Origin: a bacterium HR17
Lineage (GTDB): Bacteria > Armatimonadota > Fervidibacteria > Fervidibacterales > Fervidibacteraceae
Reading direction: 5' to 3'
NCBI GenBank assembly: GCA_002898575.1
Contig: BEHT01000028.1
Span: forward strand, 1-48,964
Length of the DNA stretch: 48,964 nucleotides
Shown here: positions 42,818 through 48,964 of the stretch, one piece after another
Layout of the letters: each line of letters begins with the position of its first letter
Position numbering within the stretch: the first letter of the stretch is position 1
Notes under the pieces: generated by a model
The model's database searches: none
Told to the model about the DNA's origin: nothing
Seen by the model: the letters and a program-made list of their open reading frames with translations, nothing else
Position numbers and translations under genes: made by a program

Positions 42818-42832
42818 ATGGGTGACCCTTGA
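42818..42832 (+). CDS. Four-codon leader mini-ORF before the sigma-like gene
   Basis: GGGAGG (42804-42809) lies eight bases before an ATG that opens the frame MGDP and stops at 42832. Its TGA overlaps the TTG start of the sigma-like gene as TTGA. The real start of the sigma-like gene has no ribosome-binding site of its own, and an in-frame stop at 42823 blocks any earlier start. Translation of the sigma-like gene may depend on reinitiation after the mini-ORF. It might instead reflect a frameshift in the DNA. Confidence 0.3.
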   Translation: MGDP

Positions 42833-43338
42833 AGCGGGTGCAAGGGATCAAAGCCGCACTGCAAAGGGCGCAAAGGTGGCAACGCCCGCCAAACTGGACA
42901 AAAAGGGAGTGGCAAGCGGAACTTTTCGCCCTTGCTCGGGCGGCAGCATGTCAGTGTCTGTTTGAACAGCCTGATGCCGATGACAACACTTTGACCCGTT
43001 ACATTTTGGCGGCTCTCAAAAGGTTTTGGAGAGAGGAATGGGCTTACGCTGCCCGTTGCGTTCCCCTCGTTGAGCCCTCCCTCCCAACAGACGAGGGTGA
43101 ACCGTGCGATGTTTTGGAGTTTGTGGCAACCGATTGGGACGAAAACAGGATTATTTTGCGCCTTGCCCTTCAAGAAGCCCTTGCACGGTTGTCCGAAAAA
43201 GACCGCTTCCTTGTTCATTGTTTGTTCTGGGAGGGAAAAAGTCAGGCAGAAGTGGCGCAAGGGTTGGGGATCAGTCGCCGCGCTGTGCGAAAGCGCCTCA
43301 ACGCTGTCTTGAAGAAACTGAGAGCGATGTTGGAATAG
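42829..43338 (+). CDS. Small sigma-70-family-like protein (region 4 helix-turn-helix)
   Basis: The 169-residue protein ends in a clear sigma region 4-type helix-turn-helix: LQEALARLSEKDRFLVHCLFWEGKSQAEVAQGLGISRRAVRKRLNAVLKKL, spanning about residues 105-165 (DNA recognition in SQAEVAQGLGISRRAVRKRL). The N-terminal half (TRYILAALKRFWREEWAY) may be a divergent region 2 but lacks confident motifs. It could be an ECF-type sigma factor or an unrelated regulator with a sigma-4 domain. No anti-sigma gene is adjacent. TTG 42829 is the only start after an in-frame stop; GTG 42838 is an alternative. It lies at the border of the accessory region and might control the downstream cassette (inference). Confidence 0.75.
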   Translation: MKRVQGIKAALQRAQRWQRPPNWTKREWQAELFALARAAACQCLFEQPDADDNTLTRYILAALKRFWREEWAYAARCVPLVEPSLPTDEGEPCDVLEFVATDWDENRIILRLALQEALARLSEKDRFLVHCLFWEGKSQAEVAQGLGISRRAVRKRLNAVLKKLRAMLE

Positions 43339-43578: not shown

Positions 43579-43623
43579 ATGGCAGGGGGCAGACAAGGCT
43601 TCAATGGCTGGAAGCGGCGATGA
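43579..43623 (+). CDS. Putative 14-residue leader peptide
   Basis: GGAGG nine bases upstream precedes an ATG opening the frame MAGGRQGFNGWKRR. Its TGA overlaps the ATG of the thioredoxin-like gene as ATGA (43620-43623). The thioredoxin-like gene itself has only a modest GGAAG site. The arrangement suits translational coupling. The product has no known relatives that I recognise and may serve only to be translated. Confidence 0.4.
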   Translation: MAGGRQGFNGWKRR

Positions 43624-44303
43624 AACCTGAAAAGAGGCTGAGGTTTTTGGTCGGTGTGCTGGTCATTCTCACGGGAGTGTTCGCTTTTCTTGCTGTCAAC
43701 TCCCCTGAAGGGAATACTTTGTTTGCTTTTTGGGAAGCCAAAAAGAGAGCGTGGGAAAATCAGCGCCGCTTTCAACAAGCCCTTGCTTCTGACCCGACTA
43801 TCGGCACAACCTTCAAGCAACTTGGCATCAATCTCTCGCCTCCTTCTAATTCATCGCTTCCTATGTTAGTTGTCGTTTTTGGTGGCTGTGAGGGATGCGG
43901 GGCACGAAATTTGGAAGAGTGGGCGGAAGTTTTCAGTAAGTGGGAGACTGTGAGGAAAGAGATAGCAGGGATTTTGGTTATCCGAGACAAAGCGGAGAAA
44001 GTGAATGAAGTTGTGAGCAAGAATGGATGGAAGGTTAAGGTTATTGCCGATGAGGATGGGTCAATAAGCAAGGCGTTGAACGCCTTCTTTTCACCGAGGG
44101 CGTATGGTTTCATTGAAGGGAAATTGGTATGGGTTCAGAAAGAGGCTGGGATGGGAGTAGTGAGGACATTGGAGGAGTTTGTGAAGGTGGTGAAGGGGGA
44201 AGAGGAGGCGAGTAGGTTGATAAATGCATGGTCAGCGGAGATGAGGGGGAAGGTGTGGGAGAAGGAGACATCAAGTCAAGTCAAAGGAAGTGATAAGCGA
44301 TGA
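43620..44303 (+). CDS. Membrane-anchored thioredoxin-like protein
   Basis: The 227-residue protein has an N-terminal membrane helix (about 8-26) and a thioredoxin-like domain whose strand MLVVVFGGCEGCGARN near 80-95 places a CxxC (CEGC) at the start of the first helix, as in TlpA/ResA-type proteins. The following text (IAGILVIRDK, VKVIADEDGSISKAL, RAYGFIEGKLVWVQ) matches the fold, including the position of the cis-Pro strand, where SPRAYGF has the Pro. It would handle disulfides outside the membrane. It immediately precedes the prepilin and 12-Cys genes, sharing an ATGA overlap with the prepilin gene, so cysteine oxidation or reduction of those products is a reasonable inference. Start ATG 43620 is also the end of the leader mini-ORF. 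Confidence 0.78.
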   Translation: MKPEKRLRFLVGVLVILTGVFAFLAVNSPEGNTLFAFWEAKKRAWENQRRFQQALASDPTIGTTFKQLGINLSPPSNSSLPMLVVVFGGCEGCGARNLEEWAEVFSKWETVRKEIAGILVIRDKAEKVNEVVSKNGWKVKVIADEDGSISKALNAFFSPRAYGFIEGKLVWVQKEAGMGVVRTLEEFVKVVKGEEEASRLINAWSAEMRGKVWEKETSSQVKGSDKR

Positions 44304-44484
44304 AGCGAACGGGTTTGACCTTGATAGAGTTGGTAGTTGTTTGTGCGATTATAGCGGTTTTGGTGGGGATAATTTGGGTAGTGATGGCGCCGGCGAGGGA
44401 GAAGGCGAGGCAGACAGTGTGCATCAGCAACTTGACACAAATTGGACATGCCTTCAGGATGTATCGGGATGATTGGGATGGTGT
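44272..44484 (+). repeat. 213-bp perfect inverted repeat, left arm
   Basis: This arm covers the end of the thioredoxin-like gene and the first 185 bases of prepilin A. It is identical, base by base on reading, to the reverse complement of 46922-47134, and similarity fades on both sides. The two arms lie 2.4 kb apart and face each other. Confidence 0.95.
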
Positions 44485-44908
44485 TGAGCCACAAAAAGGA
44501 ATGCGGTTAGAATATTGGCAAGTGGGGCTACCGCCAGAGAAGGGTTCTCCAAACTCGTGTGTAGAACCTTACCTAAAGACGAAATCTGTATGGATTTGCC
44601 CTTCTGAATTTCGTGACCCATTCATCAGAATCGCTTCCTACTTGCCTAATTACTGCACTCACGACGATGTTCGATTGTTCGGTTACCGATACGATGAATG
44701 TCTGCTATGGCCAGGTGGAGTTGTGTCTTTTAGTTGGGCAATTTCTCACATTCCTGATTGGCCTTTTCTTTATTGCGATGTGCATCATCTCCTGTGCGAT
44801 CCAGATTATAAATGGATGGATAGGCATTTACATGTGCTGCGTCTTGATAATTTTTCAGTAGAAGTAGTGAACTCAGCCGACTATGTATTAAGACTTCCAA
44901 CTTATTGA
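44300..44908 (+). CDS. Prepilin-like protein A (type IV / type II secretion N-terminus)
   Basis: The 202-residue product starts MKRTGLTLIELVVVCAIIAV, a class III signal with the cleavage Gly before LTLIEL and the conserved Glu5, followed by one hydrophobic helix. Such proteins are processed by a prepilin peptidase (not in this window) and assembled into pili or pseudopili. The C-terminal domain contains several Cys, a YDEC motif and SHIPDWPFLYCDVHH, also seen in the copies at 46630 and 48728. The ATG overlaps the upstream stop by four bases. The first 62 residues are encoded by DNA identical to copy B, whereas the rest has diverged. It might be a pseudopilin or a surface pilin; the extracellular function is unknown. 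Confidence 0.82.
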   Translation: MKRTGLTLIELVVVCAIIAVLVGIIWVVMAPAREKARQTVCISNLTQIGHAFRMYRDDWDGVEPQKGMRLEYWQVGLPPEKGSPNSCVEPYLKTKSVWICPSEFRDPFIRIASYLPNYCTHDDVRLFGYRYDECLLWPGGVVSFSWAISHIPDWPFLYCDVHHLLCDPDYKWMDRHLHVLRLDNFSVEVVNSADYVLRLPTY

Positions 44909-44921
44909 GGAGGTGTCAGTC

Positions 44922-45308
44922 ATGATGAGAAGACTGGAAAGGCTTAGGAGTAAAGTCTTGTTGGTGGCGTTGATAGTCGGGGGTGTGACAGTTCTCCCGT
45001 TAATGTTGCAGGTATGGTTGGTGGGGTATTGCTTATCGTGTATGATAACTTCTTGCCCCAAAGGCTGTGTAGATGGTAAGGTCTTGGGGCGTCCTTTCGC
45101 TGTATGTGCCCTGTGTGAAATTTCTGACCCGCAAAACCCTTACGCTTGCACGGCTTGTAACTTTGTCAATATTGAATGCGTTCCAGTTAATTCCGCCTAT
45201 GCTTGTCCACCATACCGCCAAGATGTCCAGCCATTTGTAAACATGGCAGGACCACGCCCATTTGATTGTGTTCCTCTCGATTCAATACTTCTCTGCGTGA
45301 TGAAATGA
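44922..45308 (+). CDS. Secreted 12-cysteine protein A
   Basis: The 128-residue protein starts at ATG 44922, eight bases after GAGGAGG. After a signal or anchor helix (about 10-33), the mature part has 12 Cys in the pattern CxxC-x4-C-x3-C-x12-CxxC-x10-CxxC-x6-C-x8-C-x20-C-x8-C. The paralogue at 48325-48675 keeps all 12 in the same order, with the first four at identical spacing. I recognise no known family. Candidates are a disulfide-rich structural protein or a metal-binding protein (paired CxxC). Its neighbours are prepilin A and an anchored protein. Confidence 0.7.
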   Translation: MMRRLERLRSKVLLVALIVGGVTVLPLMLQVWLVGYCLSCMITSCPKGCVDGKVLGRPFAVCALCEISDPQNPYACTACNFVNIECVPVNSAYACPPYRQDVQPFVNMAGPRPFDCVPLDSILLCVMK

Positions 45309-45333
45309 TTGAGTAAAAGGAGGGACACAATCA

Positions 45334-45888
45334 ATGAGGCTGAAAAGGGTAATGTTAGGGGGAATAGGTGTCGGACTATTGGTTGTCTTAGTATGGTGGT
45401 GGCAGTGGCAAGCACCTTATCGCACTTTAAAGACTTTTCTGGTTGCTTTAGAACGGAGCGATGTAAACACCCTTTACAACCTTGCACCTCCTAAGGAACG
45501 CAAACTTGAGATTATTACTCCCGACCTTATCCAATACACGGTTCAACATCTTTTGCGTCCGCTTCTCCTTGACCGCTACCAACTTGTAGGTATTAGACGC
45601 TCTTCTACAAGAAGTGGGAGACCAGAAATTTGGATTCGCGATACGGCGGTATTGTTTGTCCTTCACCACCGAGATAGGGAGGGAAATGAAATAAGTCCCC
45701 CTTTAGTTGCATTTGTCTCCCGCCCTCTGGGGGAGAAGAAATGGTATGTCCCTTTCAGTTACTTTGTCTACACAACAGCCCACTCCTTGATCGGTTTTAA
45801 TGAAGGAGACGCTTGGATGTATAAGGCAGGTTATCGGTTTGTGTATCTTCATAACGGCGGGATAATACCACTAAAACCACCTCGGTGA
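45334..45888 (+). CDS. Membrane-anchored protein A of the repeated cassette
   Basis: The 184-residue protein starts at ATG 45334 after AAGGAGGG. One N-terminal helix (about 8-24) ends in WWWQWQAPYRTLKTFLVAL, and a conserved extracellular domain follows (LYNLAPPKER, WYVPFSYFVYTTAHSLIG). The paralogue at 47781-48296 shares WQAPYRTL, the ER of the next helix and VPFSYFVW-TA. The domain is not one I recognise; a SnoaL/NTF2-like fold is a guess based on the helix-then-sheet pattern. It lies between the 12-Cys gene and the DUF2079 fragment. Confidence 0.65.
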   Translation: MRLKRVMLGGIGVGLLVVLVWWWQWQAPYRTLKTFLVALERSDVNTLYNLAPPKERKLEIITPDLIQYTVQHLLRPLLLDRYQLVGIRRSSTRSGRPEIWIRDTAVLFVLHHRDREGNEISPPLVAFVSRPLGEKKWYVPFSYFVYTTAHSLIGFNEGDAWMYKAGYRFVYLHNGGIIPLKPPR

Positions 45889-45894
45889 ACGGAC

Positions 45895-46593
45895 ATGACA
45901 CTTAAAGCGACACTATTGACAATAAATGGACGACTAAGAGCAATTACAATAGCCGCATTTGGACTTAGCATATGGGTTCTTTTGATGGTTGGAATTTCAC
46001 TTCGCCGTTTCTACCTTCTTGGCGCACAAGCCTTTGATCTGGGCATCTTTCAGCAAGGGGTTTGGCTTTTGGCAAACGGTTATACGCCCTTTGTGACCGT
46101 TCGCGGTTGGCATCTTTTCGCCGACCATTTCAGCCCCATATTGTTCGTCTTCGTTCCCTTCTACCGAATTTGGGCTCACCCTTTTTGGCTTTTCCTTGCA
46201 CAAACCATCGCTTTAGCGTTGGGCACTATCCCTGTCTACCGCCTCGCTTTCCGCCACACAGGCAACCAACGCTACGCCATCCTTCTTGCCCTTGCCTATC
46301 TGTTCCATCCCGCTGCTTGCACAATGCTCTTCTTTGATTTCCATCCTATCTTGCTTTCCATCCCCTTCATCCTTTGGGCAATTGATGCCCTTGACGAAGG
46401 TCGTCCAATTCCTTTCGCATTTGCTTGTTTCTTCGCTTTGCTTTGTCGTGAAGATGTCGCCGTTTCCGTTTTCTGTCTGAGCCTTTACGCACTACTTGTT
46501 CGTCGCAAAGTTTGGGGTGGTGCGATGGTGGTTGTTAGTGTGCTTTGGTTCCTTTTGGCGACCAAGGCGATGGCTTTTCTGAGTGGAAAGTAG
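45895..46593 (+). pseudogene. Truncated DUF2079 membrane protein
   Basis: The frame encodes 232 residues resembling the first half of DUF2079 family membrane proteins (GAQAFDLGIFQQGVWLLANG, HLFADHFSPILFVFVPFYRI, LFFDFHPILLSIPF). Family members are commonly about twice this length, with many more helices. It ends after FLLATKAMAFLSGK, exactly where sequence homologous to the 3' end of the prepilin genes begins on the opposite strand, so the missing half was probably removed by rearrangement. It starts six bases after the anchored-protein stop. It may be non-functional, or translated as a shorter protein. Confidence 0.7.
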
Positions 46594-46629
46594 AAATAAT
46601 GATGGGCTGGACAAAGTAGAATAGGCCAA

Positions 46630-47106
46630 TCAGGAATTTGGGAACAATTTCAGGAAAGGTAAAAAACGAGCCGCATTTAGACTTCCAAAAGGAGCACAAG
46701 CATCGTAAGGCAGACCGAAATCTACATAATCTCCTCCCACACAGTAATTGGTGGCGTAAGTAGTAGATGGCTTTGGAGGGCATCCTCCTGGTTGAAGAAA
46801 ACAACTGGGGCAGCGCAAAACATCTTTTGATTTGAGATAAGGGCGTATAGCTTTCCCCCAATACCATCTGTCGGGCAACCCTAACTGCCAATACTCCAAT
46901 TGCACACCTTTCTGCGGTTCCACACCATCCCAATCATCCCGATACATCCTGAAGGCATGTCCAATTTGTGTCAAGTTGCTGATGCACACTGTCTGCCTCG
47001 CCTTCTCCCTCGCCGGCGCCATCACTACCCAAATTATCCCCACCAAAACCGCTATAATCGCACAAACAACTACCAACTCTATCAAGGTCAAACCCGTTCG
47101 CTTCAT
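46630..47106 (-). pseudogene. Prepilin-like protein B, frameshifted and truncated
   Basis: The first 62 residues match prepilin A exactly (MKRTGLTLIELVVVCAIIAV and onward), the next 80 are related but diverged (YLKSKDVLRCPS, YDACAPFG), and the frame then stops at 46630. In another frame, just downstream, the DNA still encodes IPDWPILLCPAHHYFYFP, the counterpart of SHIPDWPFLYCDVHH in A, as far as about 46585. The gene therefore carries at least one frameshift and lacks its last part, running into the DUF2079 fragment. It could be a silent cassette or decayed copy; the 158-residue frame might still be expressed. Confidence 0.75.
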
Positions 47107-47134
47107 CGCTTATCACTTCCTTTGACTTGACTTG
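46922..47134 (-). repeat. 213-bp perfect inverted repeat, right arm
   Basis: This arm is the reverse complement of 44272-44484. It contains 28 bases upstream of prepilin B plus its first 185 coding bases. Recombination between the arms would invert the intervening 2.4 kb. Perfect identity beside diverged flanks suggests recent copying or gene conversion. Confidence 0.95.
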
Positions 47135-47193
47135 CTGTCTCCTTCCCCCCTCATCTTCTGAGAAGACATTGAACAAAAGAAGTGAAGACATCT

Positions 47194-47643
47194 TCAACGC
47201 TGGTCAACAGCCACAATGATGGTCGTGACTTTCTCTTTCGCCCGCTGCATGATGGTGACGGAAACCGTCCTTTTCTCCTCCCTAATCACAAACACGCCCA
47301 ACTTACCAGCCGGGTTGTCATCCCCAAAATAAGCGCTCACGATTTTCTCCTTCTCCGTCCCTGCATAAAATGTCCCACTTTTTATTTTCGGCAGCCCCGT
47401 GGTCATTCCCCTGCTCACTTTCTTCCAATAAAACTCCCATACCTTCTCAAAGGGGTCAGTAGTGGTGAGTTTCGTCCAGAGCAAAGGTGGTTGGTTTGTT
47501 CCTTCCGCTCCACGCTTTGCCTTTGGATATGCCCATTCAGCCAAAGGGTCTTGAGGCGCTCCAGACCAAACTCGCTGCATCATCACCGCCATCACTGTCA
47601 GTGCGACTCCCAGCATCACCGACTTTGCGACTTTCGCCATCAT
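47194..47643 (-). CDS. Exported protein of unknown function
   Basis: The 149-residue protein starts at ATG 47643, eight bases after AAGGAGG. A hydrophobic N-terminal segment (about 8-25) is probably a signal peptide or anchor. The rest (WEFYWKKVSRGM, SGTFYAGTEKEKIVSAYFGDD, KLGVFVIREEKRTVSVTIMQR) has a mixed alpha/beta pattern without a family I can name. It has no counterpart in the plus-strand cassette and lies between anchored protein B and prepilin B. Confidence 0.65.
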   Translation of the reverse strand: MMAKVAKSVMLGVALTVMAVMMQRVWSGAPQDPLAEWAYPKAKRGAEGTNQPPLLWTKLTTTDPFEKVWEFYWKKVSRGMTTGLPKIKSGTFYAGTEKEKIVSAYFGDDNPAGKLGVFVIREEKRTVSVTIMQRAKEKVTTIIVAVDQR

Positions 47644-47666
47644 GACCGACACCTCCTTTTTAGTAA

Positions 47667-47686
47667 GGCGCATCTTCCAATGCGCC
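47667..47686 (+). repeat. Solo hairpin related to the structured repeat
   Basis: GGCGCATCTTCCAATGCGCC forms a perfect 7-bp stem and matches hairpin 1 of the diverged repeat copy at 42408 (GGTGCATCTTCTGATGCGCC) with compensating changes. It lies just upstream of the ribosome-binding site of the 47194-47643 gene. Confidence 0.45.
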
Positions 47687-47732
47687 AATTTCCCCCTTGC
47701 TCCACGCGTTATGAACCTTACCCACTGATGCT

Positions 47733-47761
47733 ATGGCTACAGTTAAGGTCATTGTAGCCAT
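47733..47761. other. Intergenic hairpin
   Basis: ATGGCTAC (47733-47740) and GTAGCCAT (47754-47761) form an 8-bp stem with a 13-base loop, between anchored protein B and the exported protein. No T run follows, so its role is open. Confidence 0.3.
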
Positions 47762-47780
47762 CTCGTGTGACACCTCATTC

Positions 47781-48296
47781 TTACTGCAACCAAAATGTCC
47801 CACCGTCTGCCGTGGCAACTTTCTCATAACCTAATTGATGCATGATAGGTGTCGGATTGCCATACAACCCTTTCGCTGTCAGCCAAACAAAGTAACTGAA
47901 CGGAACCCGCCATCCCTGTCGGTCAGGTGGATGGCAAAGGTAAATGACCAAAGGATATCGCTCATCTCGGAACCAGAGATAGAAAAGCGCTTGACGGCGA
48001 GAACCGACATTCTTGGATGACTCCCGTTGGATGCGAACGAGTTTCTCACGCGGATAGTGCTGATCCAACAAGGGCTTAAGGAATTGGCGATAGGTTCGTT
48101 CAACTAACTCCATGTTCACTCCCGTTTGTTCCCGCTCATGAACAGGGGTTAGTTCATAGATGGTTTTGATGTCGCCTGCGTATAGTGCGTTCACAAAAGT
48201 GGTCAGGGTGCGGTATGGGGCTTGCCATACCCACCACCACACCCCGACCAGTGTGATTTCGAGAATGACAGAGGTTATCCATAACTTACGCCTCAT
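47781..48296 (-). CDS. Membrane-anchored protein B of the repeated cassette
   Basis: This 171-residue paralogue of the protein at 45334-45888 has the same plan: a membrane helix ending WWWVWQAPYRTLTTFVNAL, a charged helix (YELTPVHERE), then WRVPFSYFVWLTAKGLYG. ATG 48296 is chosen; a TTG one codon earlier has slightly better spacing to AGGAGG. It follows 12-Cys protein B by about 28 bases, repeating the order seen on the other strand. Function is unknown. Confidence 0.65.
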   Translation of the reverse strand: MRRKLWITSVILEITLVGVWWWVWQAPYRTLTTFVNALYAGDIKTIYELTPVHEREQTGVNMELVERTYRQFLKPLLDQHYPREKLVRIQRESSKNVGSRRQALFYLWFRDERYPLVIYLCHPPDRQGWRVPFSYFVWLTAKGLYGNPTPIMHQLGYEKVATADGGTFWLQ

Positions 48297-48324
48297 CAAT
48301 TATCTCAGTCCTCCTATTTCCTAA

Positions 48325-48675
48325 TCACTGGCACCGATACCTTTTTATACTCTCGACCCACACGCAACTGAACGGTGGGTAAAGTTGGCGCTTATTCTCC
48401 TCGTAGATAAGCACGTAGATGTATGGGGGACTGGAGCAAACATACCCCTCTCTCACGCAGTAGTATATTTGGAAATCGCAAGCGGTGCAGGCGAAAGAAC
48501 CATCTGGTAACTGACAGGCGACGCAGTAACTCACCACGTATGAGGTGGGGACCGCTGTGCACCCACTCTCGCAGTGTCCAGACACACAGTTCATACAATA
48601 CCCCGCCAAAAGCGGAGCAATAACCGACACGATTGAAAGAACCGTTGCAACGACCAACATTGTGCGACGGCGCAT
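48325..48675 (-). CDS. Secreted 12-cysteine protein B
   Basis: This 116-residue paralogue of the protein at 44922-45308 has a signal segment (about 5-24) followed by 12 Cys at matching positions (GYCMNCVSGHCESGC, YCVAC, FACTACDF and four later). The ATG at 48675 follows AGGAGGG at nine bases. The residues between cysteines are poorly conserved, so the cysteines are the selected feature. It lies between a prepilin-like fragment and anchored protein B. Confidence 0.7.
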   Translation of the reverse strand: MRRRTMLVVATVLSIVSVIAPLLAGYCMNCVSGHCESGCTAVPTSYVVSYCVACQLPDGSFACTACDFQIYYCVREGYVCSSPPYIYVLIYEENKRQLYPPFSCVWVESIKRYRCQ

Positions 48676-48727
48676 GGTTATCTCCCTCCTTTTGATTCCC
48701 CCACAATAGGGGGAATGATGGCAATTT

Positions 48728-48964
48728 TCACCTCAATCCAGGATATCGCGGCAATTTCCCTGAGTAATACGACGCTCGCCGCTTTTGCACCGAAAAGTCA
48801 GTGAGAATAATCTCAAAATAGAACCTATCTTCTAACCATTCGTCTTGAGGGTAATAAAAATAATTGTGGGATTCACAATAGACTACGGGCCAGTCAGGAA
48901 CATGCGAAACAACCCATCGGAAAGAAACAAATGGGGCAGGTGCATGTAACATCATGCACTCATC
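48728..48964 (-). CDS. Prepilin-like protein C, C-terminal part (runs off the window)
   Basis: The frame is open to the right edge. Its first visible residues DECMM and then SFRWVVSHVPDWPVVYCESHNYFYY align with YDECLL and SFSWAISHIPDWPFLYCDVHH of prepilin A. The 5' part lies outside the window, so the signal sequence cannot be checked. Its presence before 12-Cys protein B completes a second cassette of the same gene order. Confidence 0.72.
   Translation of the reverse strand, partial: DECMMLHAPAPFVSFRWVVSHVPDWPVVYCESHNYFYYPQDEWLEDRFYFEIILTDFSVQKRRASYYSGKLPRYPGLR

Follow-up and report, generated by a model that had tools for sequence, protein, structure and literature searches.

The Armatimonadota are a little-studied phylum whose genomes encode dozens of prepilins without known job. 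For Fimbriimonas ginsengisoli 79 PulG-type genes were reported (PMC4072686), and few conserved operons were described for Chthonomonas (PMC4959169). The closest described relatives of the prepilins discussed here are the PulG-type pseudopilins and the DUF1559/SBP_bac_10 (PF07596) proteins of Planctomycetes and Armatimonadota, to which they are linked by the N_methyl motif and by borderline matches to the beginning of DUF1559. The window analysed here, a stretch of 48,964 nucleotides, is the entire contig C28 of the bacterium HR17, whose genome of 3.15 Mb is 96% complete. This genome encodes 77 N_methyl prepilin N-termini, one per about 41 kb, which is close to the number in F. ginsengisoli, such high counts being typical of the phylum.

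The final 6 kb of the window contain a plus-strand operon followed by a minus-strand gene set which is read from the contig end (Table 1). A preliminary description of this DNA had noticed a trio of genes for a prepilin, a 12-Cys protein and a membrane-anchored protein, present twice on opposite strands, and all of these genes are found where it had placed them, as is the thioredoxin-like gene ahead of the first copy. The latter, here called the redoxin gene, overlaps the gene of prepilin 1 by ATGA, and the gap between the 12-Cys and the anchored gene is 25 nt in both copies. The paralogues are indeed only moderately similar: the two 12-Cys proteins are 34% identical, the two anchored proteins 37-41%, and the prepilins about 41% over the surviving C-terminus of prepilin 2. 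A whole-genome search revealed exactly two members each of the 12-Cys and the anchored family, and no further copy of the trio was found elsewhere in the genome. Three features go beyond the preliminary description, namely the sigma-70-like gene upstream of the operon, a junction at which two genes are truncated, and a third prepilin gene, which is broken. The gene of a 164-aa protein is inserted between the second anchored gene and the broken prepilin 3. Promoter and terminator scans gave numbers at chance level, and weak matches to PF06912, DUF4330 and cytochrome P450 were likewise put down to chance.

Table 1. Features identified near the contig end, with positions in the window.
Feature	Position	Strand	Evidence or remark
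Sigma-70 family (region 4) regulator	42829..43338	+	Sigma70_r4 4e-11; NCBIfam sigma70-ECF above cut-off; upstream of operon
Membrane-tethered thioredoxin/redoxin-like protein, CxxC (CEGC)	43620..44303	+	AhpC-TSA 1.7e-4, below gathering score; family alignment; remote ResA/YkuV E about 0.01
Inverted-repeat arm 1, 213 nt, identical; spans start and N-terminus of prepilin 1	44272..44484	+	Sequence comparison
Prepilin 1, DUF1559-type	44300..44908	+	N_methyl 1.1e-5 and NCBIfam IV_pilin_GFxxxE, both above cut-off
12-Cys protein copy 1, secreted	44913..45308	+	No Pfam family
Anchored protein copy 1, one TM helix and putative NTF2-like domain	45334..45888	+	AF2 pLDDT 81, fold comparison; no Pfam family
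DUF2079 membrane protein, truncated at junction	45895..46593	+	Pfam DUF2079 3.4e-36, profile positions 1-193 of 459; sequence read
Prepilin 3, C-terminus lost by frameshift; out-of-frame homology runs on to 46599	46630..47106	-	Sequence comparison
Inverted-repeat arm 2, 213 nt, identical	46922..47134	-	Sequence comparison
164-aa protein, N-terminal hydrophobic segment	47194..47688	-	No Pfam or NCBIfam match
Anchored protein copy 2	47781..48299	-	Paralogue of copy 1
12-Cys protein copy 2, secreted	48325..48675	-	Paralogue of copy 1
Prepilin 2, C-terminal 78 aa only	48728..48964	-	Cut by contig end (window end)

Prepilin 1 exceeds the cut-offs of N_methyl (PF07963; 25.2 versus 21.2 bits) and of IV_pilin_GFxxxE (17.3 versus 16.3). 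The DUF1559 matches comprise about 30 residues and scatter around the cut-off of 23.3 bits, with 21.7 bits for prepilin 1, 23.3 for prepilin 3 and 25.7 for the prepilin of the homologous locus L107. The genome encodes two prepilin peptidases and has nine T2SSE-type ATPase matches. Sequence criteria mark the prepilin as a genuine N_methyl protein, for the processing and assembly of which the genome should be equipped. The redoxin of the window stays below the Pfam gathering scores of AhpC-TSA (21.9 versus 26) and of Redoxin (18.1 versus 26.6). Most members of the redoxin group contain a CxxC motif, and some have CC in its place; the first Cys is invariant in 15 sequences. The upstream sigma gene is well above the cut-off for Sigma-70 region 4 (42.7 versus 24.1 bits).

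To follow the trio beyond this genome, 291 genomes of Armatimonadota and about 106 genomes from outside the phylum were searched. An anchored-protein profile made from the two window sequences gave weak matches in the phylum, the neighbourhoods of which showed prepilin and Cys-rich partners. With seven sequences the profile matched in 79 of the 291 genomes, and with 32 sequences in 122 genomes of the phylum, with one marginal match among the approximately 106 outside. The first 12-Cys profile, made from two sequences, found no homologues; deeper profiles did find them, in 28 genomes which all belong to the phylum, and no match was obtained among the approximately 106 others. A scan of a contig collection with the two-sequence anchored alignment gave no match, and a scan with three redoxins returned three contigs only, all from genomes already in the set.

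The loci were picked almost entirely by the anchored-protein profile and in few cases by the Cys-rich profile. A prepilin gene lies on the same strand beside 40 of the 46 anchored genes, which span many families and belong to related loci, so that the counts are not independent events. It is usually located 300-600 nt upstream, which leaves space for one gene. A Cys-rich gene accompanies 36 of the 46; a strict rule identified 28 of these genes, and eight were added by reading the gap between prepilin and anchored gene. In the control, such a gene was found directly upstream of one out of 278 other genes. CxxC redoxins occur with 24 anchored genes, so that roughly every second locus includes one, and a sigma-like gene was found near ten, related ones adjoining nine loci besides the window. 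Locus L105, which was found from the Cys-rich side, has the order redoxin, prepilin, Cys-rich protein. The preliminary description had regarded the cassette as an old functional unit that should recur in other genomes, and profile searches combined with the reading of neighbourhoods bear this out, since the trio was found repeatedly, in many families of the Armatimonadota. The genes recur together and form a conserved operon, typically in the order (sigma factor), redoxin, prepilin, Cys-rich protein and anchored protein, after which some loci have a glycosyltransferase gene. In many loci no redoxin could be detected, and because pairs of prepilin and anchored genes exist without a Cys-rich gene (L022 and the second pair in L071), the Cys-rich protein is dispensable in some cases.

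Some further observations were made at individual loci. Additional CxxC proteins at the redoxin position were recognized by eye only in L090, L093 and L096. A GT4 glycosyltransferase is encoded directly 3' of the module in four loci (L107 7663-9162, L021 10107-11828, L067 787-2448 and L073 3440-5143); this enzyme may belong to the operon as well and would then glycosylate the surface component proposed below. A PMT-like gene is found 3' of the module in one locus, L017. In L086 (5475-7464) the pair of prepilin and Cys-rich genes is duplicated in tandem, with one anchored gene seen beside it.

The Cys-rich proteins contain a transmembrane or signal segment and 6-17 Cys residues, and an alignment of 30 sequences has six invariant columns. 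The number of Cys residues in the mature part is even in 33 of 35 homologues (32 of 34 without L078, for which the transmembrane segment was wrongly assigned), as expected for disulfides. Outside of these conserved cysteines the family diverges fast. The dN/dS is 0.17 for a tandem pair of Cys-rich genes and 0.10 for the accompanying prepilins; the purifying selection on the Cys-rich gene marks it as a real one. A structure model calculated from five sequences was unusable (pLDDT 49).

The anchored protein is predicted by AF2 to consist of one transmembrane helix and a domain (pLDDT 81). The structural neighbours of this domain revealed by VIA are nearly all NTF2-like, with a best Z of 8.3 (4r1k), and include the MecA_N region of PBP5 and PBP2a (Z 7.7 for the N-terminal region of PBP5); Foldseek E-values are 0.019 or higher. 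An NTF2-like domain is therefore plausible, with the reservation that the fold is a common one, for which a Z of about 8 together with a Foldseek E above 0.01 is weak. The preliminary description had not been able to link the cassette to a named system, and neither the Cys-rich nor the anchored family has a match in Pfam; for the anchored family, no NTF2 family was hit at a meaningful score.

The genes of a filament subunit and of a membrane redoxin are consistently paired with that of a secreted, disulfide-rich protein. Our best explanation for this is that the conserved operon makes a disulfide-stabilised component of the cell surface which is connected with a type IV filament or pseudopilus, and we give this explanation an even chance of being correct. 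The prepilin would be processed and enter the filament or pseudopilus, the Cys-rich protein would cross the membrane by Sec and be oxidised by its dedicated membrane redoxin, and the filament would then display or secrete it. The anchored protein with its putative NTF2-like domain could be a docking or assembly partner at the membrane, and the two divergent copies in the window would provide two versions of the component. Correlations between distance matrices, which may partly reflect species history and for the Cys-rich family are based on a poor alignment, are 0.67 for anchored protein and prepilin, 0.72 for anchored protein and redoxin, 0.73 for prepilin and redoxin, and 0.29 for anchored and Cys-rich protein. 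These values suggest that the Cys-rich protein may be the part that changes fast in an otherwise stable machinery.

The same correlations bear on the main rival explanation, which sees the Cys-rich protein as a toxin or bacteriocin of small size that is secreted through a pseudopilus made of the prepilin, and the anchored protein as conferring immunity to it. Immunity proteins can have an NTF2-like fold, and small, secreted, Cys-rich proteins of rapid divergence next to a protein with a transmembrane helix and such a domain would fit this picture. So would the anchored genes that lack a Cys-rich gene (L022 and the second pair in L071) or occur twice per Cys-rich gene (L019), which resemble orphan immunity genes. 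However, the divergence of the anchored protein follows that of prepilin and redoxin far more closely than that of the Cys-rich protein, which, allowing for the poor alignment of the latter, is the opposite of what a toxin-immunity pairing would lead one to expect. Moreover, the Cys-rich family matches no toxin family in Pfam and PADLOC gave no match, for which reason a defence system was rejected too. We consider the toxin explanation as rather unlikely.

Third in rank, and less probable still, is a sensor of redox or envelope stress, in which the Cys-rich or the anchored protein would control the sigma factor through its redox state, and the prepilin would be a sensor and not a subunit of a filament. 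The sigma-like gene that precedes the redoxin gene both in the window and at several further loci suits such a module, and so does the CxxC of the redoxin, but a sigma gene near only ten of 46 anchored genes and the lack of any Pfam anti-sigma domain in the membrane proteins of the module argue against it. Methylamine dehydrogenase has a light chain with 12 Cys residues, which form six disulfides, and a MauD-type thioredoxin partner. The 12 Cys residues, a CCxY motif and the thioredoxin-like partner in the module would thus also be compatible with the small subunit of a quinocofactor enzyme. Yet the profile of 30 Cys-rich sequences matches no such PDB chain at E-values up to 10 and no member matches the Pfam family of dehydrogenase light chains, and this identity was rejected on these grounds. 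In addition, neither a heavy-subunit nor a MauE-like gene was seen beside the loci read by eye, and several Cys-rich members have no Trp, so that this explanation is largely refuted and highly improbable.

The preliminary description had interpreted the two copies as an inverted duplicate. The copies on opposite strands are real, but their tail-to-tail layout reflects a rearrangement junction and not a clean inverted duplication. The truncated DUF2079 gene and the homology of prepilin 3 end within a few nucleotides of each other (46593 and 46599), and because these two remnants meet at one point, the inverted layout is seen as the product of a rearrangement. Prepilins 1 and 3 share the 213-nt core in inverted orientation with zero mismatches, and past it their identity drops abruptly to about 50%, which looks like recent gene conversion. 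Both genes are convergent, and recombination between the repeats would swap their C-termini, similar to the pilin inversion in Moraxella; one of the two C-terminal tails of this pair is broken. Two other contigs, C64 (L146) and C5 (L147), have their first approximately 100 nt inside identical N-terminal DNA of another prepilin, which indicates that the assembly breaks at homogenised 5' ends of prepilin genes. Both were rejected as continuation past the contig end, because the prepilin in which they terminate is of another type. In L107 two duplicated prepilin genes also resemble each other far more closely in their 5' part, and together with the contig starts this suggests that homogenised N-termini may be frequent among the prepilins of this group.

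All gene types of the set are familiar ones, but no published description of the set of prepilin, Cys-rich and anchored genes was found in the open-access journal articles searched. Its recurrence suggests a disulfide-bonded structure of the cell surface that is as yet undescribed. In the phylum-wide operon a single type of prepilin is combined with a redox enzyme and with two families that have no Pfam entry. It thereby offers a testable function for part of the large prepilin repertoire of the Armatimonadota, and points to a disulfide-rich component associated with type IV filaments.

As for the known systems, the PulG-type and DUF1559 proteins differ from the prepilins of this module in that no dedicated pair of a Cys-rich and an NTF2-like partner was found described for them in the literature searched. 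The Verru_Chthon cassette (TIGR02596) is likewise a recurrent cassette that contains a prepilin; the window prepilin matches it with an E-value of 0.003 and does not reach the cut-off of 70 bits, the match is limited to the N-terminal helix, and the partner families are others. With TlpA, ResA and AhpC-TSA proteins the redoxins share the domain, the CxxC in most members and weak AhpC-TSA and Redoxin matches, but they form a subfamily of their own with a conserved N-A-x-W/F-x-x-R-x-Y, of which the window copy stays below Pfam gathering. The anchored protein resembles MecA_N, DUF3887 and other NTF2-like proteins in its predicted fold and in the layout of a transmembrane helix plus NTF2-like domain, and is distinguished from them by the lack of a Pfam NTF2 sequence match. 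The likeness to Moraxella pilin switching consists in the possible exchange of C-termini by inversion between identical N-terminal repeats. One may speculate, with considerable doubt, that the module is a phylum-specific surface structure, either a filament or a system for display. Its type IV prepilin would bear a dedicated disulfide-knotted protein matured by a redoxin of its own, and in this genome the C-terminus of the prepilin could also be swapped by inversion between the 213-nt repeats.
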